A stretch of DNA of 31,720 bases from Candidatus Gallimonas intestinigallinarum (GTDB lineage: Bacteria > Bacillota_A > Clostridia > Christensenellales > Borkfalkiaceae), in the NCBI GenBank assembly GCA_019116405.1, contig DXBS01000043.1:1-31720 (forward strand), written 5' to 3'. Both the position numbers and the translations under genes were made by a program. A model generated the notes under the pieces. It ran no database searches. It was not told where the DNA came from and saw only the letters and a program-made list of their open reading frames with translations. This document shows, in pieces, positions 28,346 to 31,156 of this stretch (position 1 is the first letter of the stretch; each line of letters begins with the position of its first letter).

Positions 28346-29101
28346 ATGAAAAAATTCGGCACGATGATTGCGGCGGGCGCCCTTGCCGTCTGTCTGACAG
28401 TGGGCCTTGCGGCATGCGCGCCCATCTCTTCGGAGGCGCGCAATACGCCGTCGGAGCACGTCACGCGGGAGCAGTGGGAGGCATATTTTTCCGATCTCGA
28501 TGCCTCGCTGGAAAATTGCAGGATCACTTACGAGACGTCTTATGCAGAGACGTCGTACGTCCTGGGTATCAAATATACCTGCACGCAGGTGCAGCAATAT
28601 GAGATCGTACATGCCGACGGCCTCATCTATCAGCGCCGCAGCGCGCATCAGACGGGTGCGTACGGCGATGTCTCGCTGGATGATTCGGAGGCAACGACGG
28701 AATTTTACGTTGCGCCCAATCCGGATGACCAGTTCGGAAACACACTCAGCCGCTATTGGAAGAACGCGGGCGGGGAGTGGAGCGTCGATCTCATAACGGT
28801 GGGGTCGCTGTTCGATCCGCTCGACGCGCTTCCTTCGACGGACTATGACGACTATGTCTACAGCGAGGATCGCGACGGGTATGTGCTTCTTGACGACCTG
28901 GATGGCGAGAACGTCGTGCTCAAGTTTGGTAAAAACGGCAGATTGGTCGCCGTCTGGCAGGAGGAGACCAGTGTCGTCACATCCCTTGGCGGCGTGAGAA
29001 CGGTGGAGCAGATGAATATCGTTATCGAGTACGGCGGACAGTCGCTGACGCTGCCGGAAGTGCCCGCCGATGATACGGGTGCGGAGACGCTCTCGGCATA
29101 A
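28346..29101 (+). CDS. Small lipoprotein, unknown function
   Basis: The 251-residue protein has a lipoprotein signal peptide with lipobox VGLAAC (C24). The mature part is acidic, with many Asp, Glu, Tyr and Thr, and looks beta-rich: alternating stretches such as YETSYAETSYVLGIKYTCTQ, EWSVDLITVG and MNIVIEYGGQSLTLPEV. I do not recognise a family. AAGGAG (28333-28338) lies 7 nt before ATG 28346. It is a single-gene unit with its own strong promoter and terminator. It resembles the large lipoprotein at 20335 in style (acidic, aromatic-rich) but not in size. Confidence 0.85.
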   Translation: MKKFGTMIAAGALAVCLTVGLAACAPISSEARNTPSEHVTREQWEAYFSDLDASLENCRITYETSYAETSYVLGIKYTCTQVQQYEIVHADGLIYQRRSAHQTGAYGDVSLDDSEATTEFYVAPNPDDQFGNTLSRYWKNAGGEWSVDLITVGSLFDPLDALPSTDYDDYVYSEDRDGYVLLDDLDGENVVLKFGKNGRLVAVWQEETSVVTSLGGVRTVEQMNIVIEYGGQSLTLPEVPADDTGAETLSA

Positions 29102-29138
29102 CGCGCAGTCGGCGCCAAGAAAATAAGAACAGCAACAT

Positions 29139-29165
29139 CTCGGGAGCGGATTTTCTGCTCCCGAG
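29139..29165 (+). terminator. Terminator of the small lipoprotein gene
   Basis: CTCGGGAGC (29139-29147) pairs with GCTCCCGAG (29157-29165) around a 9-nt loop and is followed by TTTGCTTTTTC, a good intrinsic terminator tail. Confidence 0.85.
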
Positions 29166-29214
29166 TTTGCTTTTTCGGACGCAAAAGCCATCCCTGCGCA
29201 AGGCAGTTGGCAGG

Positions 29215-29817
29215 GCAAAAAGTAACCCACGCGCAACCGCACGGGGGAGAGTTTGCTGATTTAGTTGTTCGGGTGGGCAGAGATCTTCGCGTTTCCTGCC
29301 TCGTAACTCATACTCTGCGGCACGTTCCTGCTTGCCAAAGATCGGATGCCACCGGTCGCAGCCTTTCTCTGCTCGCCGACGCGCCTCTCACGCAAACTTA
29401 CCGGTATCGGTCCTTGTGATCGGTCTGTCAGAACGCGTTGCCCCGCTTCGGATGGGGGACTTGTCAGGTCGGAAGAATTCTCGGCTTCCTCTATATCGTA
29501 GGCTCATTGCCTGCCGCGGGAAAATGTTCTACCGCGAAATTGTGTTCAAAGCCGATTTACTTCTCCGCCTCTTGGATGGAATTGTACATTGGACTATCCT
29601 CCTTTTACGAAATCTTCAAGCCTTGGGAAATGAATCTGAACATTGCGCACCTCCCACCTCATTGAATTTTTCGGAGACGTTTCCGTCCATGTTGCCCGCG
29701 GACTTTCCCGTCCGCTGATTGTTCTTTCTGTGCCCCGGGCATTACTTGTGCATCGGAGTAACCTACCTTAACGACTTGTGAGGGAATAACATTTCATGAA
29801 AGTTATTTTCTTTTTGT
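29215..29817 (-). ncRNA. Candidate large structured non-coding RNA, ~600 nt, unassigned family
   Basis: A near-consensus promoter (29851-29824) starts minus-strand transcription near 29817, and an intrinsic terminator (29245-29226 plus U-tract) ends it near 29215. In between there is no sizeable minus-strand ORF, and base composition is more even than in the genes around. Many helices can be drawn: UCGGCUU (29555-29549) with AAGCCGA (29487-29481) enclosing CGCGG/CCGCG and AGGC/GCCU hairpins; UGCCCG (29741-29736) with CGGGCA (29698-29693) enclosing a 5-6 bp hairpin; a GAAA-capped stem (29687-29676); ACCGGU (29405-29400) with ACCGGU (29356-29351); GAUCUU (29343-29338) with AAGAUC (29287-29282); GGUGGG (29658-29653) with CCCACC (29277-29272). 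Size and complexity recall OLE, ROOL or GOLLD RNAs, but I cannot match any. Two tiny ORFs with good ribosome-binding sites lie inside (see findings). Confidence 0.6.
29226..29245 (-). terminator. Intrinsic terminator of the candidate large RNA
   Basis: On the minus strand CCCGUGCG-GUUG-CGCGUGGG (29245-29226) forms an 8-bp stem, including two G-U pairs, directly followed by UUACUUUUU. Confidence 0.7.
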
Positions 29818-29823
29818 ACTTAT

Positions 29824-29851
29824 ATTATAGCAGATATTTTTGCGTTGTCAA
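29824..29851 (-). promoter_or_regulatory. Near-consensus promoter of the candidate large RNA
   Basis: On the minus strand TTGACA (29851-29846) and TATAAT (29829-29824) both match consensus perfectly, with a 16-bp spacer. The AT-rich stretch 29852-29956 upstream separates it from the Ger(x)C stop codon and contains further TATAAT-like sequence. Confidence 0.8.
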
Positions 29852-29956
29852 TAGTTTTCGGAAAAATTTTTTGCAGAAATTTTTGAATTATACTATAATT
29901 AGTGCTTATATATAATCCGTATATCCTGCCGTAGCTCATTTTTACAGATTATAATA

Positions 29957-31156
29957 TCACGACACGCTTTTGATGGTTGCTTCGATCTTCACGGGGACGG
30001 CGAGGATGCTGTCCTTCCACTGCCCGTATTCGGCGAGCGAGGCGCGGTAGAGTTTGGTCCTGAGCTCGAACAGATCGCACCCCGTCTGCACGCAGGTGTC
30101 CCACAGGTCGGAAAGATACCCCGTTAAGACCTCTTCGGCGCGCGCCTCCTGCTCGGGGGTAAGCATGCTCTTGGCGATCTCCTCGGGCGAGGACGCCTCC
30201 CGCGTGCCGTACAGCTGGACGCGCAGTTCGAGCGAGAGCGTCGCCGTGGGCACGTCGGCAAGTTCCAGCCCGACCGAGCCGCCGTTCTTGAGCACGACGT
30301 AGGTCTGCCCGTCCGCCTGAAAAGAGCCCGTGTAGACGTTGCCCTCCAGCAGGCTGAACGCGAAGGTTTGCTCGCGGGGGAGAATGGCGGCGAGCCTGCC
30401 GCCGGAAAAGATCGCCGTCTCCTCCGCGCTGTACACCTTCTTTTCCTGCGCTCCCGCCCCGCCGGAGCGATCCGAACTGCCGGAACTCCCCGCACTGCTC
30501 GATGAGCCGCCCGATGAGCCGCCCGAGGACGATCCCTCCTGCACCTGCGCGCGCACATAGGGCATGTAGCCGCTGCCGCTCACGCCGTAGTAGCCGACGG
30601 CGAACTCCCGCAGCGTGGTCGTCAGCACATAGCCCGACTTTTTCGCCGCGTCCGAAAAGAGCTTGGAGAGGGCGAGGGCGGAGGTGTCGTCGATGGCGCT
30701 CGTTGTGGAGAGCATTTCGCCTGCGCTGCCCTCGCAGGCGGCAAGCTGGCAGGAGTTGGGGATATATTCGTTGCGCAAAAAGAAGTCGAGACAGGAAAAG
30801 ACGTCCTCATTCGCGGCGCTCTCGCCCAGCAGGACGAGGTTGCAGAACACCAGCTTGGGCACCCAGCCCGTCTTGGCGTAGATGTCGGCAATGCAGTCGG
30901 GAACGGTCGCGCCCCTGCCTTCGATCTCTACGCTCGACGTGCCGCCCGTCGTCCTGTCGCTGCCCTTGGGGACGGCGATCTGCGCCGTGAGCGCAAAGTC
31001 CTCGCCGTCGCGGTCGATGCCCACGGCGAGCACGATGGCGGTCTTCTGAATGTCCACCAGCCCGAAGTCGTTGGAAAAGAAGATGAGGATGATCGCCGCA
31101 ACAATGATAAGGCACAGCCTGCCCGGCAGCGCGGCGAGAAAGCGCTTAGTTTTCAT
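29957..31156 (-). CDS. Ger(x)C family spore germination protein
   Basis: The 399-residue protein follows the GerAC/GerKC pattern: an N-terminal hydrophobic segment, then QKTAIVLAVGIDRDGEDFALTAQIAVP (given in two parts: QKTAIVLAVGIDRD, then GEDFALTAQIAVP), an alpha/beta core with FFLRNEYIPNSCQLAAC, and a C-terminal domain with a long helix and a final beta-strand (VPVKIEATIKS). These proteins are the C subunits of nutrient germinant receptors in the spore inner membrane. Unlike typical members there is no lipobox cysteine after the hydrophobic segment (FFSNDFG), so it is probably held by a membrane helix. Residues 207-237 form a Ser/Gly-rich linker between the domains. GGGAGG lies 7 nt before ATG 31156, inside the end of the permease gene. 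Confidence 0.9.
   Translation of the reverse strand: MKTKRFLAALPGRLCLIIVAAIILIFFSNDFGLVDIQKTAIVLAVGIDRDGEDFALTAQIAVPKGSDRTTGGTSSVEIEGRGATVPDCIADIYAKTGWVPKLVFCNLVLLGESAANEDVFSCLDFFLRNEYIPNSCQLAACEGSAGEMLSTTSAIDDTSALALSKLFSDAAKKSGYVLTTTLREFAVGYYGVSGSGYMPYVRAQVQEGSSSGGSSGGSSSSAGSSGSSDRSGGAGAQEKKVYSAEETAIFSGGRLAAILPREQTFAFSLLEGNVYTGSFQADGQTYVVLKNGGSVGLELADVPTATLSLELRVQLYGTREASSPEEIAKSMLTPEQEARAEEVLTGYLSDLWDTCVQTGCDLFELRTKLYRASLAEYGQWKDSILAVPVKIEATIKSVS

Follow-up and report, generated by a model that had tools for sequence, protein, structure and literature searches.

What is encoded in the roughly 600 nt that lie, on the minus strand of the stretch of DNA analysed here (31,720 nt, hereafter the window), between a GerAC spore germination gene and a convergent gene? 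The first-pass annotation had taken this interval for an independent, large, structured and possibly undescribed non-coding RNA beside a germination operon. It had seen no long open reading frame (ORF) there, which holds for the minus strand; on the plus strand the interval carries short TTG-started frames of 70, 128 and 75 aa. Sequence comparison bears out an independent, large and structured element that lacks an Rfam match and has homologues with covarying helices. It is not non-coding in the simple sense, since three mini-ORFs led by Shine-Dalgarno (SD) sites, which keep their length, stop and frame, were overlooked in that reading. The genes on either side are the following.

29957–31156, minus strand: GerAC spore germination gene, upstream of the element and on the same strand
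28346–29101, convergent with the element: gene without a Pfam match, lipoprotein-like by eye, the next likely gene 3' of the element

Limits, kin and neighbours of the element

The limits of the element are given by four features.

29851–29824, minus strand: promoter, with -35 box TTGACA (29851–29846), -10 box TATAAT (29829–29824) and TG before the -10 box (extended); 12 of 12 matches
29819–29785, minus strand: 5' leader GUACAAAAAG, then a possible hairpin AAUAAC...GUUAUU (29807–29785), from alignment A1
29269–29259, minus strand: conserved 3' motif AACAACUAAAU before the terminator; family form ACAACUNAAU or AAAACUNAAU
29247–29226, minus strand: terminator-like hairpin CCCCCGUGCGGUUGCGCGUGGG (29245–29226), then a U-rich tail TTACTTTTTG

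The -35 and -10 boxes are as perfect as annotated, and three promoter-like sites are found in 28900–30000 versus 0.9 expected. Alignment A1 holds 30 rows including the window and was made from 36 loci plus the window; L101 and L105 were excluded as wrong matches, and L084, L102, L106 and L119 as having no pattern match. No row of A1 departs from TTGAC, TG or TATA.T, and the leader GGUACAAAAAGAAAAUAAC is for the most part equally constant or nearly so; this constancy is partly selected because the rows were chosen in part by a promoter-like pattern. The promoter appears to be strong and of the housekeeping type, and transcription would start at about 29817–29819. The leader hairpin can be drawn in nearly all members, a count made without a control, and is invariant in the 11 rows of alignment A2 (helix 2), which consists of the window and ten close relatives. 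At the other end, the hairpin and U-tract placed about 600 nt downstream by the annotation owe their support to conservation, since terminator-like sites in the region are not above chance (3 found, 1.6 ± 1.5 expected): a terminator-like hairpin was located in 101 of 106 members. The motif ACAACUNAAU, AAAACUNAAU or a similar form precedes the terminator in 67 of the 106 members, and 33 have no match to the pattern. Seven members were excluded, five in which no terminator could be located (L235 among them, which begins at a contig end) and two in which it lies far off; in the resulting 99 clean-ended members the element spans 289–903 nt, with a median of 459 nt and 598 nt in the window, and some of these ends may be overshot, e.g., that of L130.

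Relatives were reached through the Ppx gene. Among 80 loci around Ppx, the Ppx/GppA protein of the window is 97% identical to those of two Clostridia MAGs and 84–90% identical to the proteins of five named Candidatus Gallimonas species; the source is thus a Gallimonas-type Clostridium, placed in Clostridia incertae sedis by the NCBI taxonomy. A blastn search of the same 80 loci with 29101–29960 yielded no more than two short matches (40 and 50 bases), and collinearity of the window with its two nearest relatives (L001 and L002) breaks off at ∼29062, just before the element. The element is present elsewhere in those genomes. It was found in all six of the relatives searched, nearly full length in three and in two parts in three; these six were reached via Ppx, and G001 and G004–G006 are among the genomes reached as relatives by that gene.

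Searched by nucleotide sequence, 51 of 151 family genomes gave a match at E ≤ 0.001, which in some was confined to the promoter. With R1, a sequence-only model of the promoter and leader, 170 of 251 family genomes matched at E ≤ 0.001 and 101 did so at 39 bits or more, which we call strong; 98 of these 101 genomes have one strong match and three have two. Collapsing duplicates among 152 records left 106 distinct members including the window, drawn from the six Ppx relatives and a family sample of one of them; the members are related, and counts over them are not counts of independent events. In an order sample of 297 genomes, all 18 genomes at 38 bits or more belong to the family sample and the best other reaches 26.2 bits. 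Likewise, in a class sample of 391 genomes, the four matches above 50 bits are all in family genomes and nothing outside the family sample exceeds 34 bits; one class-sample match (G880, 33.6 bits) looks by eye like a promoter before a peroxiredoxin-like gene, and another (G653) scores 30.2 bits. The core pattern AAGGAGGNNANWCCRATGTAC occurs in two of the 391 class-sample genomes, both of the family, and misses two family genomes with strong R1 matches. Because R1 covers the promoter and leader only, and the large searches were strictly filtered with few candidates per genome, members with another leader would be missed. Phages gave a single 30-nt match (E 0.02), plasmids gave none, and viral contigs gave none to two exact patterns; the traits of a mobile element that were looked for, namely an Rfam intron match, many copies and carriage by phages or plasmids, were not found.

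The genes around the element vary. The nearest upstream ORF is a divergent cation/proton antiporter in 25 of the 99 clean-ended members; in two further sets of 16 members each it lies on the same strand as the element and is GerAC-like in one set and MreB-like in the other. The germination gene noted beside the element is found upstream in the window as annotated, but is a neighbour in only one subset. Antiporter, MreB and SpoIIE were named by eye from sequence; the name GerAC was given to the cluster that contains the GerAC protein of the window. Downstream, no gene is common to most of the 99 members: crude ORF calls, which in the window took a spurious co-directional frame for the downstream ORF, place the next ORF on the plus strand in 37 and on the minus strand in 37, with 25 absent or short. 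The commonest downstream family, SpoIIE-like, accounts for 13 of the 99, and a co-directional ORF lies within 300 nt in 27. These contexts look like vertical inheritance within subsets rather than a common target. MreB-like and lipoprotein-like genes lie beside the element in the window, in the opposite orientation, and in another subset an MreB-like gene lies directly upstream on the same strand.

At the gathering score, Rfam 15 gives no match in the window or in 17 homologue loci, OLE (RF01071), ROOL, GOLLD, raiA, RNase P and group II introns included. A cmscan of 29080–29990 with E values up to 5 found nothing beyond RT-6 and RNase MRP, each of which falls far short of the cut-off. The RNase MRP/RNase P match (17.0 bits, E 0.012, 29676–29708) was rejected: a type A RNase P lies elsewhere, above the cut-off, in four of six relatives (three full length, one partial; none in the other two), and the match also overlaps helix 5, a hairpin changed on both sides. 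RF00011, as opposed to RF00010 for type A, appears in two of the six relatives, below the cut-off and at the type A places. A separate tmRNA (RF00023) is present above the cut-off in 15 of 16 genomes and in part in the 16th, and ARAGORN finds none in the window. The annotation's statement that the interval has no RNase P or tmRNA core agrees with these results. Judged by titles and the opening lines of abstracts, none of the papers that our literature searches brought up describes such an RNA; the unnamed motifs of PMC8040213 could include parts of the element. We are confident that the element, as a matter of sequence, is conserved and real.

A second, different candidate for a large RNA, of ∼650–850 nt, was seen outside the window in the same genomes.

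L245 from 957, L246 from 914, L247 from 974 and L249 from 943, plus strand: second RNA
L248, L243 and L242, minus strand: second RNA

It has a similar promoter TATAATAAAGGCACAACAAGG, conserved blocks CTCTGCGGGACGATTTTCAAGCAAATCGGATAC and CCACCCGCAGAC..TTTTGCGTACGGAAA that are weaker in L242 and L243, and an end hairpin GGGGCGTATCGCAAGATACGCCCC. It has no Rfam match, and a nucleotide search with it matches 7 of 201 family genomes.

Mini-ORFs within the element

The mini-ORFs of the window are these.

29753–29742, minus strand: ORF1, AUG CAC AAG UAA (MHK), with the SD-like site AAGGUAGG at 29769–29762
29643–29605, minus strand: ORF2, MFRFISQGLKIS, 12 codons plus stop, with the SD site GGGAGGUG at 29655–29648
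29589–29557, minus strand: ORF3, MYNSIQEAEK, 10 codons plus stop, with the SD site AAGGAGG at 29604–29598, directly after the ORF2 stop

Counting AUG-started frames of at most 25 codons with an SD match of five or more, we find 2.68 mini-ORFs per transcript in the 99 members versus 0.32 in dinucleotide shuffles (20 per transcript). They follow a repeated plan, in which ORF1 lies ∼60–80 nt from the start and is followed by ORF2 and ORF3, with extra ORFs in the long forms; in most members ORF1 has 2–5 codons, ORF2 about 8–20 and ORF3 8–14. Where ORF1 has a CCR-AUG/GUG start, the CCR being imposed by the search rule and the second codon left free, a stop follows within five codons in 57 of 59 cases, versus a calculated ∼21% for random codons. 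The other first SD-led AUGs meet a stop within four codons in 25 of 25 cases, and 15 of the 99 members have neither type of start; altogether, 82 of the 84 ORF1 starts found give five codons or fewer. ORF3 begins in the context CCRAUGNAC and runs for 8–14 codons in 94 of 96 starts picked by context rather than by length.

For ORF2–ORF3 pairs, the ORF3 finder accepted only starts with C at position -3, a pyrimidine at -2 and a purine at -1, with a limited set of second codons and a length of 7–14, and ORF2 was sought at 8–20 codons, 31–75 nt upstream of ORF3; in the window, L230 and L236, the frame that their kin share was assigned to ORF2 manually. Within these limits 93 of the 99 members have a pair, and six have no recognisable one. 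The CC seen in all 93 ORF3 starts is partly imposed by the finder, C rather than T at -2 not being so. The ORF2 stop falls 15 nt before AUG3 in 35 of the 93 pairs and 6 nt before it in 30. When AUG2 was picked by its SD site irrespective of frame, with ORF3 still subject to length limits, 37 of the 39 members with a stop at -18 from AUG3 have it in frame, as do all 29 whose stop is at -9; each of the two groups covers seven different in-frame distances. The frame is thus kept in 66 of 68, and ORF2 terminates exactly at the -18 or -9 stop in 65 of 68; in 25 of the 93 the stop is at neither position, and in 21 the distance is not a multiple of three.

Several further features of the starts and modules were observed. 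The second codon after CCR-AUG is NAC in 51 of 59 ORF1 cases and 90 of 93 ORF3 cases, partly imposed in the latter save for the final C. A local hairpin before AUG3, pairing the GGN of the SD site with NCC, had seemed likely by eye, was considered also as a reason for NAC, and was rejected: it can form with a member's own halves in 53 of 93 (57%) versus 68% with swapped halves. The ORF2 SD site GGGAGGUG is complementary to the ORF2 codons CAUUUCCC (29632–29625), a pairing that is uninformative either way because it is invariant in the 11 rows (helix 7). The divergent members L240, L241, L250 and L104 carry modules of ATG, one codon (mostly GCG) and a stop, then CCCTCCAACGGAACGGCTGACGGAGGTAAAATAAGTTC, three times in L241; in these modules the CCUCC that follows a stop might base-pair with the GGAGG that comes next. 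A long subset (L103, L111, L099, L192) has an extra module that resembles the ORF2–ORF3 junction with the AUG replaced by ACG, and there ORF2 reads through into peptides ending in DTPTYT or similar.

As for the peptides themselves, an all-pairs count gives an excess of synonymous changes in ORF2 (100 versus 47.6 expected) and a slight one in ORF3 (111 versus 85.4). The ORF2 excess probably reflects over-counting of close rows: in a nearest-neighbour, base-permuted test of modest power, ORF2 scores 0.248 versus 0.232, with 252 of 1000 permutations as high (40 pairs), and ORF3 0.222 versus 0.207, with 263 of 1000 as high (58 pairs). The wrong frames give 0.254 and 0.199 for ORF2 and 0.270 and 0.278 for ORF3. 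The peptide FISQGLKIS of ORF2 is identical in all 11 close rows, an identity on which the codon test, for lack of power, can say little, and the mini-ORF peptides differ widely between subsets. We are confident, as far as comparison goes, that the start, length, frame and stop of the mini-ORFs are kept, with selection on the peptides undetected. These observations suggest that the RNA is worked by passing ribosomes and not by the peptides that it encodes.

Helices and their relation to ORF3

The helices referred to in the text are as follows.

29715–29698, minus strand: hairpin GCGGAC GGGAAA GUCCGC after ORF1 (helix 5), 98.5% paired, two of six pairs changed on both sides
29569–29562 and 29283–29276, minus strand: ORF3 helix GGCGGAGA / UCUCUGCC (helix 8), 5' strand in the last ORF3 codons and 3' strand before the 3' motif
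29555–29549 and 29487–29481, minus strand: 7-bp helix UCGGCUU / AAGCCGA (helix 9), 97.7% paired, two of eight pairs changed on both sides
29437–29431 and 29327–29321, minus strand: inner long-range helix of the 3' domain, CGCGUUC / GAACGUG (helix 13), six of eight pairs changed on both sides

Folded as a single sequence, the element does no better than shuffled versions of itself (z -0.05, with 12 of 20 at least equal to it), and the evidence for structure is thus comparative only. RNAalifold on the window and its ten close relatives predicts 100 pairs, 21 of them changed on both sides. In these 11 rows 95.2% of cells are paired versus 91.4% in shuffled alignments, 47 cells are changed on both sides versus 18.0 (slid versions give 5–11), and the covariation score is 0.157 versus 0.096, each value being reached in none of 500 shuffles; the counts were made on the same rows that served for the prediction, which favours the structure. 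The number of further pair types is not above the shuffles (42 versus 41.8; 268 of 500). The 7-bp long-range helix of the annotation stands, and its 5' strand sits just after the ORF3 stop. The GAAA-capped stem that was also noted exists at 29687–29676 and is absent from the consensus structure. Among the long-range pairings, two are supported, the ORF3 helix and the inner helix of the 3' domain.

The ORF3 helix hardly varies in the 11 close rows, where no pair is changed on both sides, and its support therefore comes from the wider family. Variants there include GGGUGAAAU/GUUUCGCCC, GAGAGCACGU/ACGUGUUCUU, GAAAUC/GAUUUC, GAGGUC/GACCUC and AGGAACG/CGUUCCU. In a test that used anchors and a short searched stretch rather than a full model, and that covered 71 of the 99 members, the mean best-stem score is 17.6 with a member's own partner, versus 13.3 with swapped partners and 11.5 with shuffled letters. 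A score of 15 or more is reached by 55 of the 71, versus 28% with swapped partners and 15% with shuffled letters; the swapped control is high because the strands are rich in G and C and common to kin. Of these 55 strong cases, 50 have a 5' strand whose end falls between -8 and +1 nt relative to the last sense nucleotide, and 53 have the 3' strand 0–8 nt before the 3' motif; what such positions can prove is limited, because the searched stretches measure only 23–38 nt (5') and 29 nt (3'). The domain enclosed by the helix spans 69–576 nt, with a median of 100. We take the ORF3 helix to be real at the level of sequence, with somewhat less confidence than the element and its mini-ORFs.

Proposed ribosome-gated folding, its rivals and known systems

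Comparison shows a conserved promoter and end, kept mini-ORFs, a covarying helix at the end of ORF3 and varied downstream genes. The simplest reading that uses the element, the mini-ORFs and the ORF3 helix together is a stand-alone structured RNA whose folding would be set by ribosomes, a ribosome-gated switch, to which we tentatively assign a probability of about 0.42. The promoter would yield a transcript of 300–900 nt (about 600 nt in the window), and ribosomes would load on up to three tiny ORFs. Because ORF2 ends right at the SD site of ORF3, ribosomes or their subunits could pass on to ORF3. The size of the ribosome footprint is well established, and a ribosome that runs ORF3 to its stop would be expected to cover the 5' strand of the ORF3 helix and thereby open this helix, by which the 3' domain is closed. 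If ribosomes failed to initiate, elongate or terminate on the mini-ORFs, the helix would form and shut the 3' domain. Since no downstream gene is common to most members, the RNA would report the translational state in trans, possibly with the 3' domain, bearing ACAACUNAAU, as its active part; the analysis found no role for this domain.

The mini-ORFs, above all ORF1, might instead load ribosomes that drop peptidyl-tRNA or stay held, so that ribosomes, initiation factors or tRNAs are titrated and the structure only presents start sites. We regard this as unlikely, though a rival to be reckoned with: the short length is kept while peptide selection is undetected, each RNA has several SD sites, L240, L241 and L250, as well as L100/L153, carry tandem modules of an SD site, a 3–4-codon ORF and a hairpin, and PMC8708949 reports that a minigene of the axe-txe toxin-antitoxin operon influences translation. 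Such titration, however, leaves the helix at the ORF3 end and the hand-over spacing of ORF2 and ORF3 unexplained, and the element occurs mostly in one copy per genome. It is rather improbable that the peptides of 3, 12 and 10 residues are the product, as signals, effectors or agents of ribosome arrest; their good SD sites, the FISQGLKIS identity and the all-pairs synonymous excess would fit, but the excess is gone in the nearest-neighbour test and the peptides vary widely between subsets.

Distinctly improbable, in our view, is a plain structured non-coding RNA in which the mini-ORFs are chance or remnants. The covarying helices, the lack of a long protein gene and the undetected codon-level selection are what it would predict, whereas the 2.68 versus 0.32 SD-led mini-ORFs per transcript, their length limits (82 of 84 and 94 of 96) and the kept frame (66 of 68) are not. 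We give equally little credence to a cis-acting leader in which ribosomes stalled on the mini-ORFs would determine whether transcription passes the terminator and enters the downstream gene: known leader-peptide attenuators bring together short ORFs, helices that alternate and a terminator, and a co-directional or SpoIIE-like ORF follows in some members, but downstream ORFs are evenly split between the strands and the next likely gene of the window (28346–29101) is convergent. A protein sponge of the CsrB type, in which the many GGA/SD sites of one RNA would bind a CsrA-like translation repressor, is scarcely credible, as CsrA (PF02599) was found in none of the 16 genomes that carry the element (the control was positive in 3 of 14 well-known genomes), and kept stops and frame are not expected of a sponge.

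Large bacterial RNA classes are few, and this element is frequent among Clostridia of a group that record titles link mainly to animal guts. It joins two things that are normally apart, a covarying structured RNA and ORFs in which length seems to outweigh peptide. If ribosomes gate it, the RNA would act in trans as a sensor of translation itself; it would also caution that translated RNAs can escape notice when "non-coding" is decided from peptide conservation.

Among known systems, OLE, ROOL and GOLLD, which are of the same size class, and raiA/ModT share with the element a promoter-to-terminator unit, covarying long-range helices and stand-alone loci; the element differs in having no Rfam match to them and mini-ORFs throughout. 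As in leader-peptide attenuators and translational leaders of the trp, erm and tna types, a short ORF (here ORF3) overlaps one strand of a helix, whose switching in the element is hypothetical, and a terminator stands at the end. Unlike these leaders, it has several ORFs, no majority downstream gene and undetected peptide selection. The CsrB/RsmZ sponge RNAs also carry many GGA sites per RNA, whereas the genomes with the element have no CsrA (16 of 16). Dual-function, peptide-coding small RNAs have SD-led small ORFs within an RNA, according to PMC5521070; the element shows the conserved start, frame and stop, but selection on the peptide is undetected at modest power, and it keeps ORF length and frame rather than a peptide, with several mini-ORFs in series. 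Minigenes, such as bar of phage lambda and that of axe-txe (the latter in PMC8708949), likewise have few-codon ORFs with an SD site; those of the element sit in a covarying RNA of several hundred nucleotides and not in an operon. None of the families and systems named here is a stand-alone RNA that also carries several ORFs of conserved length, a rating that a match elsewhere in the literature could change. The element may therefore represent a new class of regulatory RNA, a stand-alone, trans-acting gauge of translation in which ribosomes on serial mini-ORFs, of kept length but free peptide sequence, would open or close a 3' domain by way of the helix that the last ORF3 codons form, a proposal that we hold a little more loosely than the gating itself.
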